Assembly: GCF_004362045.1 (NCBI RefSeq)
Contig: NZ_SNWX01000001.1
Span: forward strand, 62,001-126,000
Reading direction: 5' to 3'
Length of the DNA stretch: 64,000 nt
DNA from: Halanaerobium saccharolyticum
GTDB taxonomy: Bacteria > Bacillota > Halanaerobiia > Halanaerobiales > Halanaerobiaceae
The notes beneath the pieces are model-generated. The model was not told the DNA's origin and did not search any database. It saw only the letters and a list, made by a program, of their open reading frames with translations. Made by a program: the position numbers and the translations under genes. Shown piece by piece: positions 38,146 to 49,730 of the stretch. Within the stretch, counting starts at the first letter, position 1, and every line of letters starts with the position of its first letter.

Positions 38146-38976
38146 ATGACTAAAAAAGCTTTAATTGCAGGCTGGGGTGATCTGCCGCGAATCTGGGCTG
38201 AAAAAGCCCAGGCTGCAGGAGAAGATTTTATTGTAATTAAAATTGCCGGAGAAATTACAGCTGAATTCTCTGATTTAGACTGTGCAGAATATACGGTAAA
38301 TTTAACTCAGCTGGGAGAGATACTCGAGATTTTAGAAAAAGAAAAAATCAAAGAAGCTGTCTGGCTGGGGAAAATACAGAAAGCACATCTTTTTGCTGAT
38401 TTTAACCCGGATCAGAAATTACAGCAGCTGCTGGCCCAGCTGCCTGATTTAAATGATGATACAATCCTGATGGCCCTGGCTCTGGAATTTATAAACTCCG
38501 GAGTTAAGCTTCTGCCCCAGACCTATCTTTTAGAAGATCAGCTGGCAGAAGCCGGTATTCTGGCCGGAGAAATTAGGACTGAGTTAAAAAAGGATTTAAT
38601 TTTTGCTTTCGAGACTGCCTATAATCTGGGCCGCTTTGACATCGGTCAGACAGCTCTGGTAAAAGATGGAGCTGTGATGGCTCTGGAGGCAATTGAAGGC
38701 ACAGATCAGGCCATAAAACGGGCGGCTAAATATGGGGGCCCGGGAGTTGTAATGGCCAAATGTAGCAAAAGTGATCAGGATCTTCGTTTTGATCTTCCTA
38801 CAGTTGGTCTTAAAACTCTGGCAAATTTAATTGAAAATAAGGCAGCAGCCTTAATTATTGAGGCGGGTAATACATTTATTTTAAATAAAGAAGAATTCTG
38901 CCGCAGAGCAGCTGCAGAGGGAATTGTTGTTGCTGCTGCAGAATATAAAGAAGGGGAGTTAATCCTACCTTGGTAA
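38146..38976 (+). CDS. lpxI: UDP-2,3-diacylglucosamine diphosphatase, LpxI type
   Basis: Cleaves UDP-2,3-diacylglucosamine to lipid X; LpxI is unrelated to LpxH and attacks a different phosphorus. 276 residues with GWGDLPRIWAEKAQ at the start, GRFDIGQTALVKDGAVMALEAIEGTD in the catalytic half and a C-terminal segment GNTFILNKEEF. Placed between lpxA and lpxB, overlapping lpxB by 7 bp. Confidence 0.94.
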   Translation: MTKKALIAGWGDLPRIWAEKAQAAGEDFIVIKIAGEITAEFSDLDCAEYTVNLTQLGEILEILEKEKIKEAVWLGKIQKAHLFADFNPDQKLQQLLAQLPDLNDDTILMALALEFINSGVKLLPQTYLLEDQLAEAGILAGEIRTELKKDLIFAFETAYNLGRFDIGQTALVKDGAVMALEAIEGTDQAIKRAAKYGGPGVVMAKCSKSDQDLRFDLPTVGLKTLANLIENKAAALIIEAGNTFILNKEEFCRRAAAEGIVVAAAEYKEGELILPW

Positions 38977-40115
38977 AAATAATGGTTTCTGCAGGTGAAG
39001 TATCTGGTGATATGCATGCTGCGGCAGTCCTGAAAAAAGTAAAACAAAAAAATGATAGTGTTCAAATTTTCGGGATGGGCTCAACTGCCCTTAAGGAAAT
39101 GGGAGCAGAGATTTTAATTGACCCTACCGAAATCAGCACTATTGGTTATATAGAAGCCCTAAAAAATATTAGACAGCATTTTAAACATCTTAAGCAGATG
39201 AAAAAAATTCTGCGGCAGCGCCAGCCGGATCTGGTGTTTCTGGTAGATTATTCTGCCTTTAATATGAAAATGGCAGAGGCCTGCAGTCAGGAAGGAATTA
39301 AGGCTGTTAATTATTTTCCACCTTCTGCCTGGGTTTACAATAAGCGCAGAGCCAGCAAAATGGCAGCTTATGGAACCCACATTGCAGCAGTTTTTCCCAT
39401 GGAAAGAGATGTTTATCAGGCAGCCGGAGCTGAGGTGACTTTTGTCGGCCACCCGCTGGTAGATCTGGTAGAAGTTGAAAAATCAGAGGCAGAAATCAAA
39501 AGAGAACTTAATCTTAAACCGGAACAGCTGGTAGTTTCGCTTTTTCCGGGCAGCCGCAGGGGAGAAATCGAATCCCTGCTGCCGGAGATGCTGCAGGCAG
39601 CTCAAAAAATAAAAAGAGAAAAACCGGAGCTTAAATTTTTGCTCTCAGCTGCAGAAGGAATTAAGGTTGATTATTTAAAATCTTTTACCGAAAAATTTGA
39701 TTTTGAGCTTAAAATCATTCAAAAAAGAAATTATCAGTTAATGAAGATTTCAGAATTTATAATTTCAGCTTCAGGGACCACAACCCTGGAAGCATCGATT
39801 TTAAATACCCCGCAGATTATTGCCTATCAGGCAGCTTTAACCACCTATCTGCTGGCAAAATATATTTTTAAGGTTGAATTTGTGGGTCTGCCCAATATAA
39901 TTGTCGGGCAGGAAGTTGTACCAGAACTTTTGCAGAATGATTTTAAGGCAGAAAGGATTGCTGAACTTGCTTTAAACTGGCTAGATCACCCTGAAGAACT
40001 CAATCAAATAAAAGAGAAACTGCAGACTGTCCGCCAGAAACTCGGTGGAGGAGGAGCAGTGGAAAAAACAGCAGACTTACTGCTTAGAGAAGGAGGGCTA
40101 AAAAATAGTGGATAG
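38970..40115 (+). CDS. lpxB: Lipid-A-disaccharide synthase
   Basis: Joins lipid X with UDP-diacylglucosamine. 381 residues; GT-B fold with AGEVSGDMHAA at the N-terminus, FPPSAWVYNKRR, LFPGSRRGEIESLLP and SGTTTLEASIL. TTG 38970 is the likely start, overlapping lpxI; ATG 38982 would also be possible. It overlaps lptC by 8 bp. Confidence 0.95.
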   Translation: MVKIMVSAGEVSGDMHAAAVLKKVKQKNDSVQIFGMGSTALKEMGAEILIDPTEISTIGYIEALKNIRQHFKHLKQMKKILRQRQPDLVFLVDYSAFNMKMAEACSQEGIKAVNYFPPSAWVYNKRRASKMAAYGTHIAAVFPMERDVYQAAGAEVTFVGHPLVDLVEVEKSEAEIKRELNLKPEQLVVSLFPGSRRGEIESLLPEMLQAAQKIKREKPELKFLLSAAEGIKVDYLKSFTEKFDFELKIIQKRNYQLMKISEFIISASGTTTLEASILNTPQIIAYQAALTTYLLAKYIFKVEFVGLPNIIVGQEVVPELLQNDFKAERIAELALNWLDHPEELNQIKEKLQTVRQKLGGGGAVEKTADLLLREGGLKNSG

Positions 40116-40677
40116 AAAAAGTATTTTTTTAGCGCTCTTTATTTTTATTATTATAGTTTTTTCTTTATATTTTAGTCTGGAGGAGAATCCGATTATAACT
40201 CCAGAATCACCTGCAGAGAATCAGCAGCTGCCTGAGGCAGAGCTGCAGGGAGTAGAGTTAACTATCTATAATGATCAGCAGAATCATCGGCTTAGACTGC
40301 TGAGTGAGCAGGTGAAAAGATTTGAGTCAGAACAGCGGCTGGATCTAAAACCTGTAAAAATTAAAGTGTTTAATAAGTCTACTGGCGAACTGCTTTATAC
40401 ACTAACTGGTGATTCTGGCAGCTATTACAGCAGTCGGGGTTATATAGAGCTGCGGGGTAATGTAGTAGTTGAGAGTGACCGCTATCAGATTAAGTCAGCG
40501 GCTCTGGATTATTATCTTAATCGAAATTATTTAGAGGGCAGAGGTTCAGTTAAAATTACAGGCAGTGGTTTTAATTCCCGGGCTCAGAGTTTTCGTTCTG
40601 ATCTTAATCTGAATAATTTAAAACTTTTTGGAAATGAGGATCAGGCTGAAATAAATTTTGATAATCTTGACGAATGA
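40108..40677 (+). CDS. lptC: LptC-like LPS export bridge protein
   Basis: 189 residues. One N-terminal membrane helix (about 7-23) then an OstA-type beta-jellyroll (LTIYNDQQNHRLRLLSEQV, GDSGSYYSSRGYIELRGN). LptC receives LPS from the inner-membrane LptBF complex and passes it to LptA. GTG start overlapping lpxB. Confidence 0.9.
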   Translation: MDRKSIFLALFIFIIIVFSLYFSLEENPIITPESPAENQQLPEAELQGVELTIYNDQQNHRLRLLSEQVKRFESEQRLDLKPVKIKVFNKSTGELLYTLTGDSGSYYSSRGYIELRGNVVVESDRYQIKSAALDYYLNRNYLEGRGSVKITGSGFNSRAQSFRSDLNLNNLKLFGNEDQAEINFDNLDE

Positions 40678-40728
40678 TAAGTAAGAATGATTAGTCCAGC
40701 GGACTATTTCAGGTGAGGGGCAATAAAA

Positions 40729-41415
40729 ATGCGAAGAAAAATTTTATTATTTTTTATAATTTTTATTTTGACATTAACTGCAAATGTAAGTGCGGTTAGA
40801 GAATTGAATGGTGATAAACTCAATTTTGAGCAGACTGAACAGGGTCAGGTATTTAGGGCCGCCGGTAATGTGGAGTTGATTTATGATGAGCTCCGGATAA
40901 CTGCTGCCGGGGAAGGAATATATCGCCGTTATAACGGAGAAATTGAATTCAGAAAAAATGTGAAGCTTTATTATCAAAATTTTACAGGTCAGGCGGATAA
41001 ACTGACTGGAAATGTAGAGGAAGAAATTTTTCATTTAATCGGAAATGCTCAGATTGAAGGAGAAAATTCTTATCTAGAAGCCGATAGGATTGATTTTTAT
41101 CAGGGCCAGCAAAAAATAGTGGCTCAGGGTAATGCCTATCTGGAGTATCAAAATTTCTGGGCGGAAGCAGATAAGATTAGCTATTTTCTGGACCAGGAAT
41201 TAATTACTCTCACCGGTAATGTAAAGGGAGAGCGAAACGGAGAGAGTTTTACTGCTCAATCAGCAGAGATTAATCAGAAAACCGAAACAGTTAAACTCAC
41301 AGGTCAGGCAACCTTAAGATTCAGCGAAAATGAGAGTGAAACTTCAGCAGGCAGTGCTAACTCAGGGGCTGATAATTCTGAAAGCAGCAGTAAGAGTGGA
41401 GCAACGGAGGAATAA
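40729..41415 (+). CDS. lptA: LptA-like periplasmic LPS carrier (OstA domain)
   Basis: 228 residues with a signal peptide (about 1-22, ending VSA), then repeated beta-strand units of the OstA/LptA jellyroll (FRAAGNVELIYDELRITAAG, FRKNVKLYYQNFTGQADKL, LTGNVKGERNGESFTAQ). The last 30 residues are low-complexity Ser/Gly/Glu. LptA units stack to make the periplasmic bridge. GTGAGGGG ribosome site. Confidence 0.92.
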   Translation: MRRKILLFFIIFILTLTANVSAVRELNGDKLNFEQTEQGQVFRAAGNVELIYDELRITAAGEGIYRRYNGEIEFRKNVKLYYQNFTGQADKLTGNVEEEIFHLIGNAQIEGENSYLEADRIDFYQGQQKIVAQGNAYLEYQNFWAEADKISYFLDQELITLTGNVKGERNGESFTAQSAEINQKTETVKLTGQATLRFSENESETSAGSANSGADNSESSSKSGATEE

Positions 41416-41419
41416 ATAG

Positions 41420-42139
41420 ATGACTATTAAAGCTCAGGGATTGATTAAAGAATATAATAAAGAAAGAGTGGTCAATGAGGTTGATCTTAAGGTTGAGCGG
41501 GGTCAGATAGTCGGGCTGTTGGGACCTAATGGTGCCGGTAAGACTACCACTTTTTATATGATTCTGGGACTAATTAATCCTGATGGGGGGCAGATTTTCT
41601 TCGATCAGCATAATATTTCCAGCCTGCCTGTCTATAAGCGGGCAAGGCTTGGAATCGGTTACCTGCCCCAGGAAGCGTCAATTTTTCGCAAACTAACAGT
41701 TGGAGAAAATCTGGCGGCGATTTTAGAACACAGAGACTTAAGTGACCAGAAAATCGAAGCCGCGATTACTGAATTATTGGCAGAATTTCATATTGACAAT
41801 CTCAGAAACCGCAAGGCTTTTCAGCTTTCTGGAGGGGAAAGACGTCGGGTTGAGATCGCAAGGGCCCTGGCAGCTGATCCGGACTTTATTCTGCTGGATG
41901 AACCCTTTGCCGGAGTCGATCCGATTGCAGTTAATGATATTCAGGAGATAATTCGTTATCTTAAAAACCGGGGACTCGGGGTCCTGATTACCGATCACAG
42001 TGTGCGCGAAACTCTTTCGATTACAGATCGAGCCTATATTATGCATGAGGGAAAGATTTTACTTTCAGGAACCTCAGCAGAAATAGCAGAAAACGAGCAG
42101 GCCCGCAAATTTTATCTGGGCGATAAATTTCAAATATAG
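41420..42139 (+). CDS. lptB: LPS export ABC transporter ATPase
   Basis: 239 residues. Walker A GPNGAGKTT (35-43), signature LSGGERRRVEIARALA, Walker B FILLDEPFAGVDPIA and the H-loop ITDHSV. Drives LPS extraction from the inner membrane by the next gene product. Confidence 0.97.
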   Translation: MTIKAQGLIKEYNKERVVNEVDLKVERGQIVGLLGPNGAGKTTTFYMILGLINPDGGQIFFDQHNISSLPVYKRARLGIGYLPQEASIFRKLTVGENLAAILEHRDLSDQKIEAAITELLAEFHIDNLRNRKAFQLSGGERRRVEIARALAADPDFILLDEPFAGVDPIAVNDIQEIIRYLKNRGLGVLITDHSVRETLSITDRAYIMHEGKILLSGTSAEIAENEQARKFYLGDKFQI

Positions 42140-42153
42140 AGAGGTGCAGTTTT

Positions 42154-43254
42154 TTGAAAATACTTAATAAATATATTTATAAAGAATTGATAGCACCTTT
42201 TTTCTTTGGGGTGGCAGCTTTTACCGGCATCTTTATTGGTACAGACTTAATTTTTGAGTTAACCGAATATTATACCCGCTGGGGAGTGGAGGTTTTTACC
42301 TTGATCAGGCTTTTCTTTTTGAGCCTGCCCGAGATAATAGTGCTTACTTTCCCGATGGCTTCTCTTTTGGGAACAATTATGGCCTATAATCGGCTTTCTG
42401 GAGACAGCGAAATCACGGCCATGAGAGCCGGCGGAGTCAGCATAATTTCTATTGTGCTGCCTGCTTTAATCATGGGGCTGGTGACAAGTGGAGTTACTAT
42501 CGGAATCACAGAGTTTCTGGTACCCAGAGCCAATTATAGAGCGGAACAGATAATGTATCAGGCCCGCCACGGGGAGCAGAGACCGGAGACTCAGTACGAT
42601 TTATTTTTAACCCCGATGGACAGCAGTACCCGCCGACCGGATTATATGCTCTATGCCCACAGTTTCAATGGAGATAGTGGTGTGATGAAGGATGTAGTGG
42701 TTCAGAGTTTCGAAAATGGCAGCCCTGATAGTGTTTTAGAAGCTAAAAGAGCAGAATGGCTGAGTGATGGCTGGCACTTTTACAATGGCACGATTTACTT
42801 TCTGGATGCAGAAGGCAGACGTCCTGCCCTGGAGTTTGATTCCTATCGCTCACGGGAGGAAATTCATTCTCCGGGCCGGGCCGGACAGCTTGGCAAAAAT
42901 ATAGATGAGATGAATATTCGGGAACTAAGTGAGCAGATTGCTCTGATGGAAGAGCAGGGGCGGACAGCCTATGAGGAACGGGTAGAACTGCATCATCGTT
43001 TTTCTATCCCCCTGGCCAGCTTTATTTTTGCTCTGCTGGCAGCACCACTGGGTATTAAACCACAGCGTTCGGCTGGTTCTGCCACCGGATTTGGAATCAG
43101 TATTATAATTATTTTTATCTATTATGTTTTAATGACAGTCGGAGATGCCCTCGGCAGTCAGGGAACAATTCAGCCCTGGCTCGGGGCCTGGCTGCAGAAT
43201 ATTGTGATCTTCATTGTTGGAGTTGGAATGCTGATTAAGACTGCCAGACAGTAA
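42154..43254 (+). CDS. LptF/LptG-type LPS export permease, single copy here
   Basis: 366 residues of the YjgP/YjgQ family: about six membrane helices, three at each end, around a periplasmic jellyroll (about 110-270). FPMASLLGTIMAYNRLSGDSEITAMRAGG is the coupling region, cited here by its ends FPMASLL and TAMRAGG. Proteobacteria use an LptF/LptG heterodimer; only one such gene follows lptB, so it may form a homodimer or pair with a gene outside the window. TTG start with GAGAGGTG. Confidence 0.9.
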   Translation: MKILNKYIYKELIAPFFFGVAAFTGIFIGTDLIFELTEYYTRWGVEVFTLIRLFFLSLPEIIVLTFPMASLLGTIMAYNRLSGDSEITAMRAGGVSIISIVLPALIMGLVTSGVTIGITEFLVPRANYRAEQIMYQARHGEQRPETQYDLFLTPMDSSTRRPDYMLYAHSFNGDSGVMKDVVVQSFENGSPDSVLEAKRAEWLSDGWHFYNGTIYFLDAEGRRPALEFDSYRSREEIHSPGRAGQLGKNIDEMNIRELSEQIALMEEQGRTAYEERVELHHRFSIPLASFIFALLAAPLGIKPQRSAGSATGFGISIIIIFIYYVLMTVGDALGSQGTIQPWLGAWLQNIVIFIVGVGMLIKTARQ

Positions 43255-43329
43255 ATTTAAAGGAGAGCGAAAAAGTAAGTTTAGCAAAATGTTTTTAAAT
43301 GATTATATTTTAGGAAAGGATGGGTAAAA

Positions 43330-45084
43330 ATGAATAAAAACCTAAAAGGTATCCCCCTGGGAATAGACAATTTTAAAGAGCTGATAGATAAAAATGCTTA
43401 TTTTGTTGATAAGTCACTTTTGATTGAGAAAGTTATCAATAATACAAGTAAAATAATGCTTTTTACCCGTCCGCGCCGATTTGGCAAAAGTTTAAACTTC
43501 TCGATGCTGAAATGTTTTTTAGAAAACCCGGAATGCAGAAAGTTTGATAATGAAGCTCAAAGTTATGAATATCTTTTTAAAGAATTAGATATTGCAGAAG
43601 AAAAGGCTTTACTTGCAGAACATCAGGAGCGCTATCCTCTGCTCAATTTTTCTTTCAAAAAAATAAAGGCTAATCACTGGCAGGAGGCTGCTTATCTTTT
43701 AAAAGAAGAAATTGCAAGAGAGTATAAGCGGCATCGTTATTTACTGGATTCTGAGCTGCTGTCAGATTTTGAAAAAAATGAATATCAAAAACTGATGCGT
43801 AAAGAAGCTCAGATTTTCAATTACAGTTCTGCAATCAAAGAACTAACTGATTATTTAAAAAGATATTTTAATGAAAAAAGCATTGTTTTAATAGATGAAT
43901 ATGATACTCCTCTCCATTATGCTAAACTAAATGGCTATTATAATGAGATGCTAAATTTTATGAGGGCTTTAATGGTTGATGGGCTTAAAGGTAATGACAG
44001 TCTGGAAAAAGGTGTTGTTACTGGAATTATGAAAATATCACAGGAAAGTATTTTTAGTGCTTTTAATAATCCGGAAACAAATACAATTATTGATTCTTTT
44101 TGTGCGGATAAATTTGGTTTTACTGAGGCTGAAGTTAAAGAAATGCTTGCTTATTATTCTATCAGTGATCAGCTGGATACAGTTCGGGACTGGTATAATG
44201 GCTATCTTTTCGGTGATCGAATAGTGATTTATAATCCCTGGAGTATTCTTAATTATGTTAAATCCAATCCCCGGCAGCCCAAAACATACTGGAATAATAC
44301 GGGTGACCCGGAGCTGATTAAAGAAGCACTGCAGCTGGATCAGAAAAAGGGAAAAGAGTATTTAGAGAAATTATATCAGGGGCAGTCGCTGACAGTAGAA
44401 GTTGACAGCAATATTATCTATGATTATGTATTTAATGATGTTGATAAAGCCCTGAGCTTTTTACTGCACAGCGGTTATTTAAAGGCTGAGCAGTGCAGTG
44501 AACAGTATCAAAAATACAGACTCAGTATTCCCAATCGGGAAATTAGGTTGATTTTTAAAAAAATTCTGGCTAACTGGTTTAATTTTGAGGAACAGAGTGG
44601 AGATTTAATTGTGGATATGTTAAACTCTTTAATCAATGGTGATTTGAGTAGTTTTGAAATTCATCTCCAGGATTTAATACTTGTCAGCAGCAGCTATTAT
44701 GATGCAGCTGCTTCTACCAGGGTGCTTTCGGAAAAAGGTCAGGAAAAAGAAAGACAGGAAAATTTTTATCACGGCCTGATTTTAGGTTTGATGACTTATT
44801 TATCTGATCAATATTATTTAGAAAGCAATAAAGAGTATGGGCTGGGAAGAGCTGATATAGTGCTCCTGCCAAAAGATAAGGATCAGAATGCTTTTGTGAT
44901 GGAATTTAAAAATGAGTATACGACTTCTGATATTTCGGCTGCAGCTGCGGCCGAAAAAGCAATACAGCAGATAAATGAACAAAAATATGCAGCAGCTTTA
45001 AAAAAGCAGGGGTTAAAGAAAGTATATAAACTGGGAATTGGTTTTAAAGGTAAAGAACTGGCATTGAAAACAGAGATTGAATAG
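43330..45084 (+). CDS. AAA-ATPase with C-terminal PD-(D/E)XK nuclease-like domain (AAA-ATPase_like/DUF1703 family)
   Basis: 584 residues. The N-terminal AAA_like domain begins LKGIPLGIDNFKELI with Walker A TRPRRFGKS (46-54) and Walker B VLIDEYDTPL. The C-terminal domain has the nuclease-type residues GRADIVLLP and FVMEFKNEY (D..E-x-K). Such genes are often present in many copies per genome and may be selfish or defence-linked; their function is not known. It breaks an otherwise uniform envelope operon between lptF/G and DUF3084, with no repeats or transposase at its borders. Confidence 0.85.
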   Translation: MNKNLKGIPLGIDNFKELIDKNAYFVDKSLLIEKVINNTSKIMLFTRPRRFGKSLNFSMLKCFLENPECRKFDNEAQSYEYLFKELDIAEEKALLAEHQERYPLLNFSFKKIKANHWQEAAYLLKEEIAREYKRHRYLLDSELLSDFEKNEYQKLMRKEAQIFNYSSAIKELTDYLKRYFNEKSIVLIDEYDTPLHYAKLNGYYNEMLNFMRALMVDGLKGNDSLEKGVVTGIMKISQESIFSAFNNPETNTIIDSFCADKFGFTEAEVKEMLAYYSISDQLDTVRDWYNGYLFGDRIVIYNPWSILNYVKSNPRQPKTYWNNTGDPELIKEALQLDQKKGKEYLEKLYQGQSLTVEVDSNIIYDYVFNDVDKALSFLLHSGYLKAEQCSEQYQKYRLSIPNREIRLIFKKILANWFNFEEQSGDLIVDMLNSLINGDLSSFEIHLQDLILVSSSYYDAAASTRVLSEKGQEKERQENFYHGLILGLMTYLSDQYYLESNKEYGLGRADIVLLPKDKDQNAFVMEFKNEYTTSDISAAAAAEKAIQQINEQKYAAALKKQGLKKVYKLGIGFKGKELALKTEIE

Positions 45085-45099
45085 TCAAATTTTAAGGAG

Positions 45100-46410
45100 G
45101 TGGAGATTATTAACGCATTTGTTATTATAGGAGCAGTTGTTATTTTAAGTGGTTTAATTGCTTATCTTGGTGATCGGATTGGGATGAAAATGGGTAAAAA
45201 GAGAGTTTCCTTATTTGGTCTCCGCCCCCGTTATTCTTCAATTATTATTACCATTGTTACCGGAATTTTAATCGCAGTTCTTTCAATTACTATTTTACTG
45301 GCAGTTTATTCTGAATTAAGACAGGCCTTATTTAATATTAATGATGTTTTAACAAGACTTGAATATTTAAATGAAGAGCTGGAAAATAGAGATCAGCAGC
45401 TGGCTGCAAAAGATCAAAAGTTGGCGGCTAAAGATCAGGAACTGGCAGAGCTGCAGAAGGAAATCGAAGCAAAAGAGAAAGTGATTGCGAACAAAGAGGC
45501 TGAAATTGAGGCCAGAGAAGCAGAAATAGCGAAAAAAGATCAGGAAATAGCTGCTGTAGAAAGTGAACTGAAAAAGTTAACCCAGAATAGAGACGAGCTG
45601 CAGAATCGGGTAAACGAGTTAAGTTCACAGCGGAAAAAATTGGAATCTCAGGTGACAGAACTGCAAAATCAAATATCCGAACTGGAAGCAGACTACGGCA
45701 GGCTGCGGGAAGTAGCAAATCAGCTGCAGGCTGGTGTAATCTATTATATGGGTGAGGATATGGTTTACCAGAAGGGTGATATAATTTATACCGATGTCCT
45801 CGAAGGAGGGCGCAGTGAGCAGGAAACAATTTCTGCCCTGAATAAATACCTGCAGGCAGCCAATCAGGTTGCAACCAAGAAAGACATTGAGGTCAATCAG
45901 GAAACCGGGATGGCTCTGCGTTTACAGACAGAGGATATTTTAAATGCTGCCCGGATAATCTATAATATGGAACCCGGCAGTAGAGTGATTGTTTCTCTGG
46001 TAGCCAGAGTTAATGTTCCTCAAAATGACTGGCTTTATGCAAACTTCCAGCTTTACGAGGACTTTAAAGTATTCGAAAAAGATCAGCTGATCAGCAGCAG
46101 AACAATTAGTGCTGAACAGAGCAGTGAGGAAATTGAAACTGAACTGGAAGCACTACTGCAGGATATTAATAAAAAAGCAATTAATCAGGGACTTTTACCT
46201 GACAGCTCAGGCCAGGTTGGCAGTATTAACTTCAGTCAGTTTTATGATCTGGTTAATAGAGTTCGTTCTGCCAGTGGTAAGGTAAAGGTAAATATTTATG
46301 CAGATACAGATATCTGGCGGCGGGATAGATTGAGCGACAACTTAAGATTCGAACTGGAAGATAAGGTGGCAGAGGAGTCAGCTGCCGGGGAGGCCGATAA
46401 TAATGAGTGA
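45100..46410 (+). CDS. DUF3084 membrane coiled-coil protein
   Basis: 436 residues. Two N-terminal membrane helices (about 5-23 and 48-70) flank GDRIGMKMGKKRVSLFGLRPR, the DUF3084 hallmark. A long coiled coil (about 80-210) rich in Glu, Gln and Lys with repeats of the type LAAKDQ follows, and the C-terminus is globular. Unknown function, envelope-related by position. GTG 45100 falls in the GGAGG site (45096-45100); ATT 45109 is spaced 8 bases from it and may be the real start. Confidence 0.85.
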   Translation: MEIINAFVIIGAVVILSGLIAYLGDRIGMKMGKKRVSLFGLRPRYSSIIITIVTGILIAVLSITILLAVYSELRQALFNINDVLTRLEYLNEELENRDQQLAAKDQKLAAKDQELAELQKEIEAKEKVIANKEAEIEAREAEIAKKDQEIAAVESELKKLTQNRDELQNRVNELSSQRKKLESQVTELQNQISELEADYGRLREVANQLQAGVIYYMGEDMVYQKGDIIYTDVLEGGRSEQETISALNKYLQAANQVATKKDIEVNQETGMALRLQTEDILNAARIIYNMEPGSRVIVSLVARVNVPQNDWLYANFQLYEDFKVFEKDQLISSRTISAEQSSEEIETELEALLQDINKKAINQGLLPDSSGQVGSINFSQFYDLVNRVRSASGKVKVNIYADTDIWRRDRLSDNLRFELEDKVAEESAAGEADNNE

Positions 46411-46816
46411 TTTACTGGCACTTGATCCCGGCAGTGATAAAGTTGGTACTGCAGTTTTGAACTATGAGAAAGAGGAAAAAGAAAAAACAATAGTAAAAAA
46501 AGAGGAACTTCTGGATCACCTGGAAGAAATTTTTAGTCATTATCAGATAAAGGAAGTAGTAATTGGCAGTGGAACCGGGGCTGAGGCAGTAAAAGAAATG
46601 ATCAGCCGTACTTATTCTGATCTCAAAATTACACTTGTGGCAGAAGAATATACAACTGAAGAAGCTCAGGCCCGTTATTTAGAGCAAAAGCCGATGTCCA
46701 ACTACGAAAAACTGCTGCGTAAAATAGTCAGCTGGAAGATTAAAAAACCGCTTGATGACTACGCAGCTCTGATAATTGGTGAAAAATATCTCGAAACTAT
46801 TGACGAAAACGATTGA
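46403..46816 (+). CDS. YqgF/RuvX-like RNase H-fold protein
   Basis: 137 residues. LLALDPGSDKVGTAVL and VVIGSGTGAEAV fit the RNase H fold of YqgF-type pre-16S nucleases and Holliday resolvase relatives, and late DDYAALIIG provides the acidic pair. It is more divergent than a standard RuvX, and overlaps DUF3084 by 8 bp, a pairing that hints at a shared task. Last gene of the superoperon. Confidence 0.75.
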   Translation: MSDLLALDPGSDKVGTAVLNYEKEEKEKTIVKKEELLDHLEEIFSHYQIKEVVIGSGTGAEAVKEMISRTYSDLKITLVAEEYTTEEAQARYLEQKPMSNYEKLLRKIVSWKIKKPLDDYAALIIGEKYLETIDEND

Positions 46817-46856
46817 AACTGGTATAATTGAGATTGAGGATACACAAAAATTAAAT

Positions 46857-46886
46857 TTGACAGATAACTCAATTTACTGTTATAAT
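46857..46886 (+). promoter_or_regulatory. Strong promoter of the SLH porin gene
   Basis: A perfect TTGACA (46857-46862), an 18-bp spacer and a perfect TATAAT (46881-46886), the best promoter match in the window. Transcription would start near 46893, leaving a leader of about 240 nt. Confidence 0.85.
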
Positions 46887-46892
46887 TTAATT

Positions 46893-47133
46893 TGCAAATT
46901 GATAACATAATAATGCTTATAAACTCGACGCTAAAATGCGGCAGAAAGGAGGTGCCCCCCGAAGCTGCGTAGTGGTAGGGTTATAAGAGTTCTAAGATAC
47001 TTATTTTAAATCTTTTGGACAGATGAAGAGGAAACTAGGTAACTCGCTCGGATGTCCTCTATGATTGTATAAGTTATTAGAACTTATATATTGAAAAGAA
47101 AAAGTTAGAAAACAATCAAGGGGGATTTTAATA
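46893..47133 (+). promoter_or_regulatory. Long structured leader RNA of the SLH porin, with mutually exclusive pairings
   Basis: The segment 46981-46995 can pair with CTTATAA at 46916-46922 (7 bp) or with TTAGAACTTATA at 47077-47088 (12 bp with a 2-nt bulge). The latter can instead close its own hairpin (47068-47075 with 47081-47088, 8 bp). Inside lies a stem-loop with GGAGGTG and CCCCCC (46949-46961) framed by GCAG/CTGC, and a second domain framed by GGACA/TGTCC (47017-47056). The alternative pairings look like a switch or an mRNA stabiliser. I tried to fit SAM, c-di-GMP, lysine, guanidine and T-box patterns and found no match. Confidence 0.6.
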
Positions 47134-48939
47134 ATGAAAAAACTTACAATTACAATTGCTTTAATCTTAATCGTAGCATTAGCTATGCCTGCATTTGGTC
47201 AGTCATTCTCTGACGTGCCAAGTGATCACTGGGCATATGATGCAATTAACAAATTAGTTGCTGCTGGTATCGTCGAAGGTTATCCTGATGGCGAATTTAA
47301 AGGTAGCCAGAACATGACTCGTTACGAAATGGCTGTTATGGTTAGCCGCGCTCTAGATCAAATTGCTGATGCAAGAGAAGATCTTGTTGACAAAGTTGAC
47401 GAAATGGGCGAAGGTCTAACTACAGGTCAGGCAGAAGATGTAACTGCTATCGTTAAGTCTTTAATGGAAAAGAACACTGATAAAACACTCAGTGATCAGG
47501 AAGCTAAAGAAGTAGCAGATATCGTTGATGCTTTAACATTCGAATTAGCTGCTGAGCTTAAAGTATTAGGCGCAGATGTTGATGCTGTAGAATCTGACTT
47601 AGCTGAAGTACAGGAAACTGTAGCTAAATTAAAAGCTGATATGCCTCAAGACAACATTGAGTTTGGTGCTACAATCGATACTTTTGCAGAAGTTGCTAAT
47701 TATGGTGACAATCCAGCTGCAGTTATCGAGCTCTGGGCTGATGGAGACGCTTTAGATATTACCGCTCCAACTACAACTGATGAAGAAGATGCAGAAGATT
47801 TCCCAGCAGAAAAGAAATTCTGGCAGGAAATTGGAATTGACGCTACTGGTGAATTAAATGGAGCAAGCTTTAATCTTGCTGTAGATACTACTACTAATGT
47901 ATTTACTGAAGAAGATACTGTTTTTGACAGCAGTGTTTATACTGTTGAAGAAGATGGTTTGAGTTTAGCTGTTGATAGTGCTTTATTAGAAGTTGCTTAT
48001 AATGACTACGGAGTTAAGTTAGGTGACTTAGATGGATATACAGCTTCCTCATACTTTGTTGATGACGAAGATATGGAAGGTATGGAAATGACAGCTTCTT
48101 ACATGGGTAATGACATCACTGCTTTTATTTTGGGTGAAGATTATGATGTTGATACAGATTACTATGGTGTTCATGTAAGTAGAGAAATGGACTTCGGTAC
48201 TGTTACTGGAAAAGTATATCAGGCTAGTTTTGATTTAGAGACTAAAGATGTTACTGATGTAGCTGTAGAAGTAACTGATGTAGCTGTTACTGATATGATT
48301 ACTGTTGGTGGAGAAGTTGTATTTAATGATACTGAAACAGAAAGCGATACCTTATTCAATGTTAATGCTGAAGCAAAAATTAGTGACGCATTAACTGTTG
48401 ATGGTATGTTTGAAACTGTTGGCGAGAACTTTGAGTCAGCAAGTGTATTAGGTGATCTTGAAGAAGCTAATAATTACGATAAGTTTAATGTGGGTGCTTC
48501 ATATGTAGTGAATGAAAACAATACAGTTACTGGTGACTATACATTAGTTCAATCTGATGCAGCTGGTAATAATGAAGATAAGAGCACTGTAGAAGTTGCA
48601 CTTGACAACACTTATGGTAAGTTTACTAATAATGCATCTGTTGCTTATACTATGAATGATGGCTATACAGATGGTCACGATACTACAGTTATCGAATTGG
48701 GTACTGAGTATGCCTGGAATGAAACCACTACTCTTGGTGCTGCTTTAGTTAACAAGAATGAAGAAAAAGCTGCAGGTAATGTAATCAGCTATAACTACCT
48801 AAAGGGTACTATGGATAAAGAGTTAGCTGAAAACATGAGCTGGAATACTGAACTTAAGTATATCACAGGTGAAGTTGGAACAGCTAATACTGAGGGAACA
48901 GGTAATGCACTTACTACTTCCTTATCTGTAAGCTTCTAA
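47134..48939 (+). CDS. SLH-domain outer-membrane porin (OmpM type)
   Basis: 601 residues. Signal peptide about 1-22, then one SLH domain ([21 protein letters not shown] start, about 24-85), a coiled-coil spacer (about 90-172) and a C-terminal beta barrel (from about 176) ending SLSVSF. OmpM proteins are the main porins and wall tethers of diderm Firmicutes: the SLH domain grips the peptidoglycan and holds the outer membrane down. Codon choice is biased and regular, as in a highly expressed gene. GGGGG ribosome site, strong promoter, long leader and a strong terminator support abundant expression. Confidence 0.9.
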
Positions 48940-48969: not shown

Positions 48970-48998
48970 AACCCGGGGGATTTATTCCCTCGGGTTTT
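48970..48998 (+). terminator. Terminator after the SLH porin gene
   Basis: An 11-bp stem (48970-48980 with 48986-48996, one G-U pair), 5-nt loop and a T tail. Confidence 0.88.
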
Positions 48999-49046: not shown

Positions 49047-49730
49047 ATGAAGAATAAAATTATGGTGTTAATGATAGCTTTGATGTTGGTAGGACTTATG
49101 GCAGGTAATGCAGCAGCTGCTGAGTGGAAAGCAGTTGGTGGTATGGCAATTACTAATGTAACATTAGACAAATGGAATTCTACCATTGATGATTTGAATA
49201 CACTAGTTGCGAGTGATTTTAAAGGTGCAATAGCAACAAGTAATATTGAAAAAATGGAAAATATTGATAGGGTTCCTATGATTTATGTGGGGGCTAAAAA
49301 AAGATTAAACAATAAATGGACTACAACTGTACAATATGAACGTATCTTTGGTGCAGTAGAAACAAACTTTGATTCTGCAGTGGGAAGTGGGTCTGCAGAG
49401 ATAGATGTAGCTTTAAATGGAATTGGTATTCTTGCTGATTACAGTTTAAATCAAAGATGGTCTTTAGGTGGAGGAATAGCGTTTTATAAAGGTACTAAAG
49501 ATAAAGATTTTGAAGGGCAGGCTTTTGCTGCTTCTGGCTTAGTAGATAAAGAAGTTGATTTAGATGCAGTTAGTTATCGTCTGGGGGTTGGTTATGAAAG
49601 ATCTTTTGCTGATAACTGGGATTTTAATGCTGGTTTAGATTACTTATATCTTGAGATGGATGATGATGAAGAAGGCAACGTATACAGTAATGGATTTTCC
49701 TATACTGCAGGTTTAACATATAGCTTCTAA
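49047..49730 (+). CDS. Small outer-membrane beta-barrel protein
   Basis: 227 residues. A signal peptide (about 1-25, ending AAAA) is followed by alternating strands typical of an 8-strand barrel (OmpW/OmpX-like pattern: WTTTVQYERIFGA, WSLGGGIAFYKG, YRLGVGYERSF) with the terminal GLTYSF ending in Phe, the signal read by BamA. No named family is recognised. AGGAGG ribosome site, own terminator. Confidence 0.78.
   Translation: MKNKIMVLMIALMLVGLMAGNAAAAEWKAVGGMAITNVTLDKWNSTIDDLNTLVASDFKGAIATSNIEKMENIDRVPMIYVGAKKRLNNKWTTTVQYERIFGAVETNFDSAVGSGSAEIDVALNGIGILADYSLNQRWSLGGGIAFYKGTKDKDFEGQAFAASGLVDKEVDLDAVSYRLGVGYERSFADNWDFNAGLDYLYLEMDDDEEGNVYSNGFSYTAGLTYSF

Follow-up and report, generated by a model that had tools for sequence, protein, structure and literature searches.

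Stav et al. (2019) described the SLH motif, a riboswitch candidate from Thermovirga lienii without a ligand, with 80 examples in Synergistaceae, Clostridia and Negativicutes, and according to the main text of that paper about 60% of these precede genes for SLH-domain proteins and the rest genes of unknown function (PMC6429828). A different precedent is the STAB-SD of Bacillus thuringiensis cry3A, a Shine-Dalgarno (SD)-like sequence within the 5' UTR that matches the 3' end of 16S rRNA and from which no translation starts (PMC4113751). Among outer-membrane proteins, the E. coli ompA mRNA is stabilised by its 5' UTR (PMC2777011) and Yersinia ompA is under the control of an RNA thermometer (PMC8245352). 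OmpM is a porin that also ties the outer membrane of diderm Firmicutes to the cell wall (PMC10628300), and in the literature we found no report on its control in these bacteria.

The leader described here precedes an OmpM-type porin gene of Halanaerobium saccharolyticum and contains an unused (decoy) SD as well as a strand complementary to the true SD (anti-SD). Leaders of this kind lie ahead of SLH porins or other barrel-type proteins, which is the gene context of the SLH motif, and they are found in Halanaerobiales and Negativicutes, which agrees with its taxa, Halanaerobiales being classed in Clostridia at the time of that description. Because gene context and taxa agree so well, we consider the leader to belong probably to the same class, on a comparison of descriptions rather than of consensus sequences. 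If it does, the class is already known as an orphan candidate, to which our analysis contributes a wide distribution, likely barrel proteins as the non-SLH targets, the decoy SD and a proposed switch based on the anti-SD; the main text of Stav et al. mentions neither a decoy SD nor an anti-SD, nor a barrel identity of the non-SLH targets (PMC6429828). The SLH motif goes unmentioned in PMC8632094, PMC7266159, PMC11109978 and PMC10043782.

The other precedents are matched in part. The decoy SD resembles STAB-SD in being a complement of the 16S 3' end that mostly lacks a start codon, but it is situated in the loop of a conserved stem beside a C-run and within a larger structure, and stabilisation by it is only putative. 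As in translational riboswitches with an anti-SD, a single strand would alternate between an upstream partner and the SD, although here the masking strand belongs to a long conserved hairpin and the loop motif falls outside the Rfam classes; by computation, the leader combines the conserved receptor-like domain and the expression platform on the SD that mark a riboswitch. The enterobacterial ompA 5' UTRs are likewise structured leaders that set the abundance of a major outer-membrane protein, but they act through 5' stem-loops, the sRNA MicA with Hfq, or melting, and we see no sequence relation. Rfam 15 gave nothing at the gathering threshold in the window (the whole 64,000-nucleotide stretch analysed), nothing relevant in the leader at E values up to 5, where a permissive search yielded solely an irrelevant 14-nt match, and nothing in the leaders of 12 relatives, in agreement with the view of the initial annotation that no known class fits.

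The porin locus and the fold of its leader

The initial annotation, made from the letters of the window, had placed a perfect promoter and a leader of roughly 240 nt ahead of an SLH porin gene, and both are borne out by the features below.

46857..46886, + strand: sigma-70-type promoter TTGACA-N18-TATAAT, matching 12 of 12 consensus positions, with TG preceding the -10
46916..46987, + strand: domain I, closed by stem P1 (46916-46926 with 46978-46987)
46928..46969, + strand: stems P2 and P3 within domain I; P3 pairs TGCGGC from 46937 with GCTGCG at 46964-46969
46943..46954, + strand: decoy SD AGAAAGGAGGUG, complementary to the 16S 3' end at all 12 nt, in the loop of domain I
46955..46960, + strand: C-run, a possible partner of either the decoy SD (GG.GG/CCCC) or the true SD
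46989..47083, + strand: domain II (hairpin II), from alignment A1 and the consensus fold
47028..47045, + strand: motif II GAGGAAACUAGGUAACUC, an apical stem with a 12-nt loop, consensus GAGGnAACnnGGnnACUC
47055..47068, + strand: anti-SD UCCUCUAUGAUUGU, the 3' strand of domain II, with 13 of 14 positions able to pair with the true SD region
47112..47125, + strand: true SD region ACAAUCAAGGGGGA, with the SD AAGGGGG at 47118-47124
47134..48939, + strand: gene of the SLH-domain outer-membrane porin (OmpM type) proposed to be regulated, 601 aa with C-terminal Phe (from the ORF list)
48970..48996, + strand: intrinsic terminator 3' of the porin gene, an 11-bp stem and a T tract

With the -35 at 46857-46862, a spacer of 18 nt and the -10 at 46881-46886, transcription would start near 46893, which gives a leader of 241 nt up to the ATG at 47134. 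The porin matches the Pfam SLH family (PF00395) at E = 3.2e-15. Another sequence resembling a strong promoter (TTGACG-17-TATAAT with TG) is present at 46800-46828, overlapping the 3' end of the preceding gene, and may give rise to a longer porin transcript. To the 5' side, at 38970-46816, lies an outer-membrane gene cluster whose ORFs, named by eye from the ORF list, resemble lipid A disaccharide synthase, LptC/LptA/LptB-like proteins and an LptF/G-type permease, in agreement with the outer-membrane locus of Halanaerobiales and Negativicutes (PMC5007114); a 584-aa AAA-ATPase-like ORF within it (43330-45084) is seemingly unrelated to the cluster. Directly 3' of the terminator, a small signal-peptide protein of 227 aa with a C-terminal Phe (49047-49730), which has no such leader, is likely another outer-membrane barrel.

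Folding of the leader as a single sequence proved little, since it beats shuffled sequences only modestly (z = -1.85), and the leader was therefore examined comparatively. Among 66 aligned leaders the pairs of domain I can form in 93.7% of cells, compared with 66.5% in shuffles, and the covariation score is 0.616 against 0.174 in shuffles and at most 0.125 with partners slid; the score profits from an alignment fitted to the structure, but the slid controls come nowhere near it. P1 is paired in 95.7% of cells and all 11 of its pairs have two-sided changes, and such changes occur at every pair of P3 (paired in 90.6%) and P2 (82.4%). Restricted to the order, the score is 0.325 against 0.203. Compensatory changes, which the initial annotation had named as the check on its stems, are found in all main stems, and the comparative evidence for a structure far beyond chance supports its proposal of a switch-like structured leader in front of the porin.

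Domain II consists of a base stem P4 (GUUCUAA/UUAGAAC, 46989-46995 with 47077-47083), followed by a variable middle part and an apical hairpin; stem P5 pairs 46999-47004 with 47069-47074, and the GGACA/TGTCC that the initial annotation assigned to a second domain are indeed found at 47017-47021 and 47053-47057. The apical loop at 47028-47045, which had been missed, is the most widely conserved part of the leader. Ten positions of motif II are invariant among 46 diverse sequences, and its stem covaries (0.334 against 0.146 shuffled), with GAG/CUC replaced by AAG/CUU in four leaders (L101, L109, L110, L111). A divergent motif II, AGAAAACAUGAACACU, occurs in two leaders of one genome (L083 and L099), where the second G of both GG steps is jointly changed to A, hinting that these two positions may contact each other. 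Resemblance of motif II to the 16S segment GUAACAAGGUAAC was considered as mimicry and dropped, as the matching positions vary.

The alternative pairings proposed initially fared less well. Pairing of 46981-46995 with 47077-47088 in place of 46916-46922 is possible within the genus, but the extra pairs are lost outside it; mutual exclusion of P1 and P4 is likewise confined to the genus, P1 and P4 being adjoining stems that form together, and the hairpin 47068-47088 is not conserved beyond the genus. What stands is a structured, switch-like leader without an Rfam family, and what falls is the exact set of exclusive pairs. The exclusion that comparison supports is a different one, in which the true SD (47112-47125) would be paired by the 3' strand of hairpin II (47055-47068) or, as a separate case, by the C-run of domain I.

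Spread of the two domains

By plain DNA similarity the leader is found in all 12 genomes of the genus and as fragments across the order. A covariance model of domain I (R1) finds it in 30 of 38 genomes and 15 of 17 genera of the order, and a broader domain I model (R2) in 47 of 59 genomes of the class and in 39 of 398 sampled across the phylum. One R1 match (L084) was false and was not matched by R2, and one R2 match in Negativicutes (L125) was also false. The matches inspected, comprising every match from beyond the class and the majority of those within, precede signal-peptide proteins, mostly SLH porins. Some of the non-SLH targets match Porin_4 or SlpA_C, and the complete ones end in Phe. 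A C-terminal Phe is a trait of outer-membrane barrels, and from their sequences the non-SLH targets are likely to be such barrels. One genome (L117) has a tandem pair of leader copies, of which the copy before a non-SLH protein keeps domain I and lacks motif II.

A recognisable domain I is absent from most Negativicutes: 200 genomes gave one real match (L124), and a second case (L149) is a relative in the same small family. Motif II, on the other hand, is present in SLH porin leaders of Anaerovibrio and a Veillonellaceae genome, and a model of the motif II hairpin alone (R3) matches 357 of 380 Negativicutes genomes at E <= 0.5. As this threshold admits chance matches a stricter count was made from the table, in which the best match is at E <= 0.01 in 328 of the 380. 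The top Negativicutes loci that were parsed lie 36-109 nt 5' of an SLH porin start in 26 of 28 cases, and in 464 kb of the H. saccharolyticum genome the only good match is that in the window (E = 1.5e-5, the next being 2.3). Because of this reach of R3 we regard motif II as the core of the leader and domain I as an addition, or as a part lost in most Negativicutes.

Possible alternative partners of the SD

The true SD is of an unusual kind for this genome: among 369 roughly called starts in about 460 kb, a GGGGG-type SD occurs at 7% and AAGGGGG at 1.9%, yet SDs of the G5 type are present in nearly all domain-I leaders. In the window the anti-SD pairs with the true SD region at -18.1 kcal/mol (p = 0.0003, dinucleotide shuffles). 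Across 22 groups the 3' strand of hairpin II pairs with its own SD at -13.9 kcal/mol and with the SDs of other families at -12.3 kcal/mol (median p 0.000), and this cognate excess survives omission of the G-run (first 30 nt, p 0.003); the 5' flank used as a control gives no significant excess (p about 0.15-0.18). The same holds for 17 groups of Negativicutes (-12.8 against -10.5 kcal/mol, median p 0.000; 5' flank control p 0.69), and there the excess is found with normal GGAGG SDs. These duplex tests rest on a few dozen related lineages. One lineage (L056) has swapped the pair for GGUUGUUU with AAACAACC, and the pairing is weak in L055, L062 and L110. Because this strand finds its alternative partner in the SD in two classes that are only distantly related, we take the anti-SD as the main mechanistic evidence.

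In some Negativicutes (L154-L156) the true SD region recurs almost unchanged in the 5' strand of hairpin II (as UAAGGAGAGAUU in L154). Mimicry of the SD by this strand is suggestive in L154 but was not retained (p 0.076).

The computed energies of the two states in the window are -52.8 kcal/mol with the SD free and -50.4 kcal/mol with the SD masked, values that leave aside pseudoknots, salt and co-transcriptional folding. The masked state is the minimum-energy fold in two Negativicutes groups (L165, L171), and in many leaders it lies 5-20 kcal/mol above the closed hairpin, so that masking would need help or co-transcriptional folding.

Domain I offers the SD a further partner. The initial annotation's full but unused ribosome-site sequence opposed by CCCCCC is confirmed as AGAAAGGAGGTG at 46943-46954, with CCCCCC directly 3' of it. 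The 16S tail reads GGATCACCTCCTTTCT in the 14 genomes of the class where the exact pattern matched, and this pattern was not found in the draft assembly to which the window belongs. The computed duplex with the 16S tail amounts to -22.6 kcal/mol for the decoy SD against -10.3 kcal/mol for the true SD. An SD-like decoy, nearly always GAAAGGAGGUG, and a C-run are present in the matches inspected; in one leader (L107) the decoy is changed to GGUGG with the remainder intact, one of the few breaks in 16S complementarity. A short leader ORF behind the decoy was considered and rejected, most leaders having no start codon there (one lies 4-11 nt 3' of the decoy in only 12 of 74).

The C-run pairs with the true SD of the window at -12.0 kcal/mol. 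Over 24 family-level groups the cognate energy is -12.87 compared with -12.10 kcal/mol shuffled (median p 0.005), and within the order no cognate excess is found (p 0.49). Family f10, whose SD is GGAGG, sets CCUUGAUUG against CAAUCAAGG with nine pairs in place of the usual C-run pairing; in this family the C-run takes over from the hairpin-II anti-SD, which is absent. In the family represented by L113, L119 and L120 the C-run has become CCCUUGAUUG and the SD CAAUCAAGGAGG, 9 pairs being kept and the hairpin-II anti-SD lost.

Models for control of the porin

With a structure shared by hundreds of diderm Firmicutes and with sequences able to cover the SD, the leader very probably controls the amount of porin made. 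The reading that we prefer, and to which we give slightly better than even credence, is that a conserved cis-acting RNA adjusts translation of the major porin by making its SD accessible or not. Computed support comes from the structure, the covariation, the gene association, the SD complementarity and, in H. saccharolyticum, the near-balanced energies of the two states. Hairpin II with its invariant apical loop would be the sensing part: closed by its own 3' strand it would leave the SD free, whereas a swap of partner by this strand would cover the SD and block initiation. In Halanaerobiia and several other lineages an added domain would place a strong decoy SD beside a C-run able to cover the true SD. 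A 30S subunit may park there, the decoy serving to load ribosomes or else to shield the 5' portion of the mRNA, and occupancy of the decoy would then influence the C-run's choice of partner; such a docking place is suggested by analogy with STAB-SD (PMC4113751). The direction of switching is that which we infer, with a protein or a small molecule as the presumed signal at the loop, and the invariance of motif II argues for a specific partner. It counts against a switch that a factor contacting only the apical loop does not obviously discriminate between the two states.

A version of the switch with a protein as the signal in place of a small molecule is a substantial possibility, although we would not bet on it: an RNA-binding protein, sensing for example the envelope load, would lock hairpin II open or closed via motif II, which is short, hairpin-borne and nearly invariant, as is typical of protein sites. 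CsrA was considered for this role and rejected, as the element in motif II is GGnnAC and the residue after the second GG is A, T or C, so that the strict ANGGA of CsrA sites, with its constant GGA in hairpin loops, is not conserved. Alternatively the leader might stabilise the mRNA and not switch at all, the decoy binding 30S subunits and stopping the 5' exonuclease RNase J1 as the cry3A STAB-SD does, and the hairpins acting like the 5' stem-loops of ompA to give a long-lived mRNA for an abundant protein. A decoy complementary to the 16S 3' end over 12 nt without a mismatch, and in most leaders not followed by a start codon, fits this well, as do the precedents, STAB-SD doing exactly so (PMC4113751) and the E. 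coli ompA 5' UTR being stabilising (PMC2777011), and the porin is expected to be very abundant. We nevertheless consider it unlikely, for it leaves unexplained both the invariant loop positions of motif II and the independent anti-SD of Negativicutes, most of which lack the decoy domain.

Two simpler readings were also considered. An RNA thermometer or salt sensor, in which the leader simply melts without a specific partner, has a precedent in Yersinia ompA (PMC8245352) and would suit a halophile in which the SD can be masked and the two states lie within 2-3 kcal/mol, but it needs no loop sequence conserved across classes, whereas the loop positions of motif II are invariant in Halanaerobiia, Negativicutes and others; we regard it as the least probable of the alternatives. 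Chance complementarity, by which the conserved structure is real and the SD pairing a by-product of a G-rich SD and C-rich stems, draws on the ease with which G-runs pair with C-runs and on the modest size of the cognate excess (about 1.5-2.3 kcal/mol). It appears improbable, given that the excess persists without the G-run and recurs in Negativicutes with ordinary SDs, and that the 5' flank controls have none.

The preferred reading, translational control through the SD, can be extended further: diderm Firmicutes would have received, together with their outer membrane, an ancient RNA switch governing how much porin they make, in which the invariant loop senses an envelope signal and, in many lineages, a ribosome-trapping decoy SD and a competing C-run tie translation to free 30S subunits. 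In this full form we think the proposal is doubtful, and we know of no precedent for porin translation responding to free 30S subunits through a decoy SD and a C-run. The near-maximal unused SD nonetheless raises directly the question of ribosomes parked on leaders. A gene and a leader shared by two distant lineages would fit common descent, or joint transfer of gene and leader, and bear on the ancestral status of the Firmicute outer membrane (PMC5007114). One RNA element before the porin genes of Halanaerobiia and Negativicutes is also a convenient object for experiment, in genetically tractable lineages among others.
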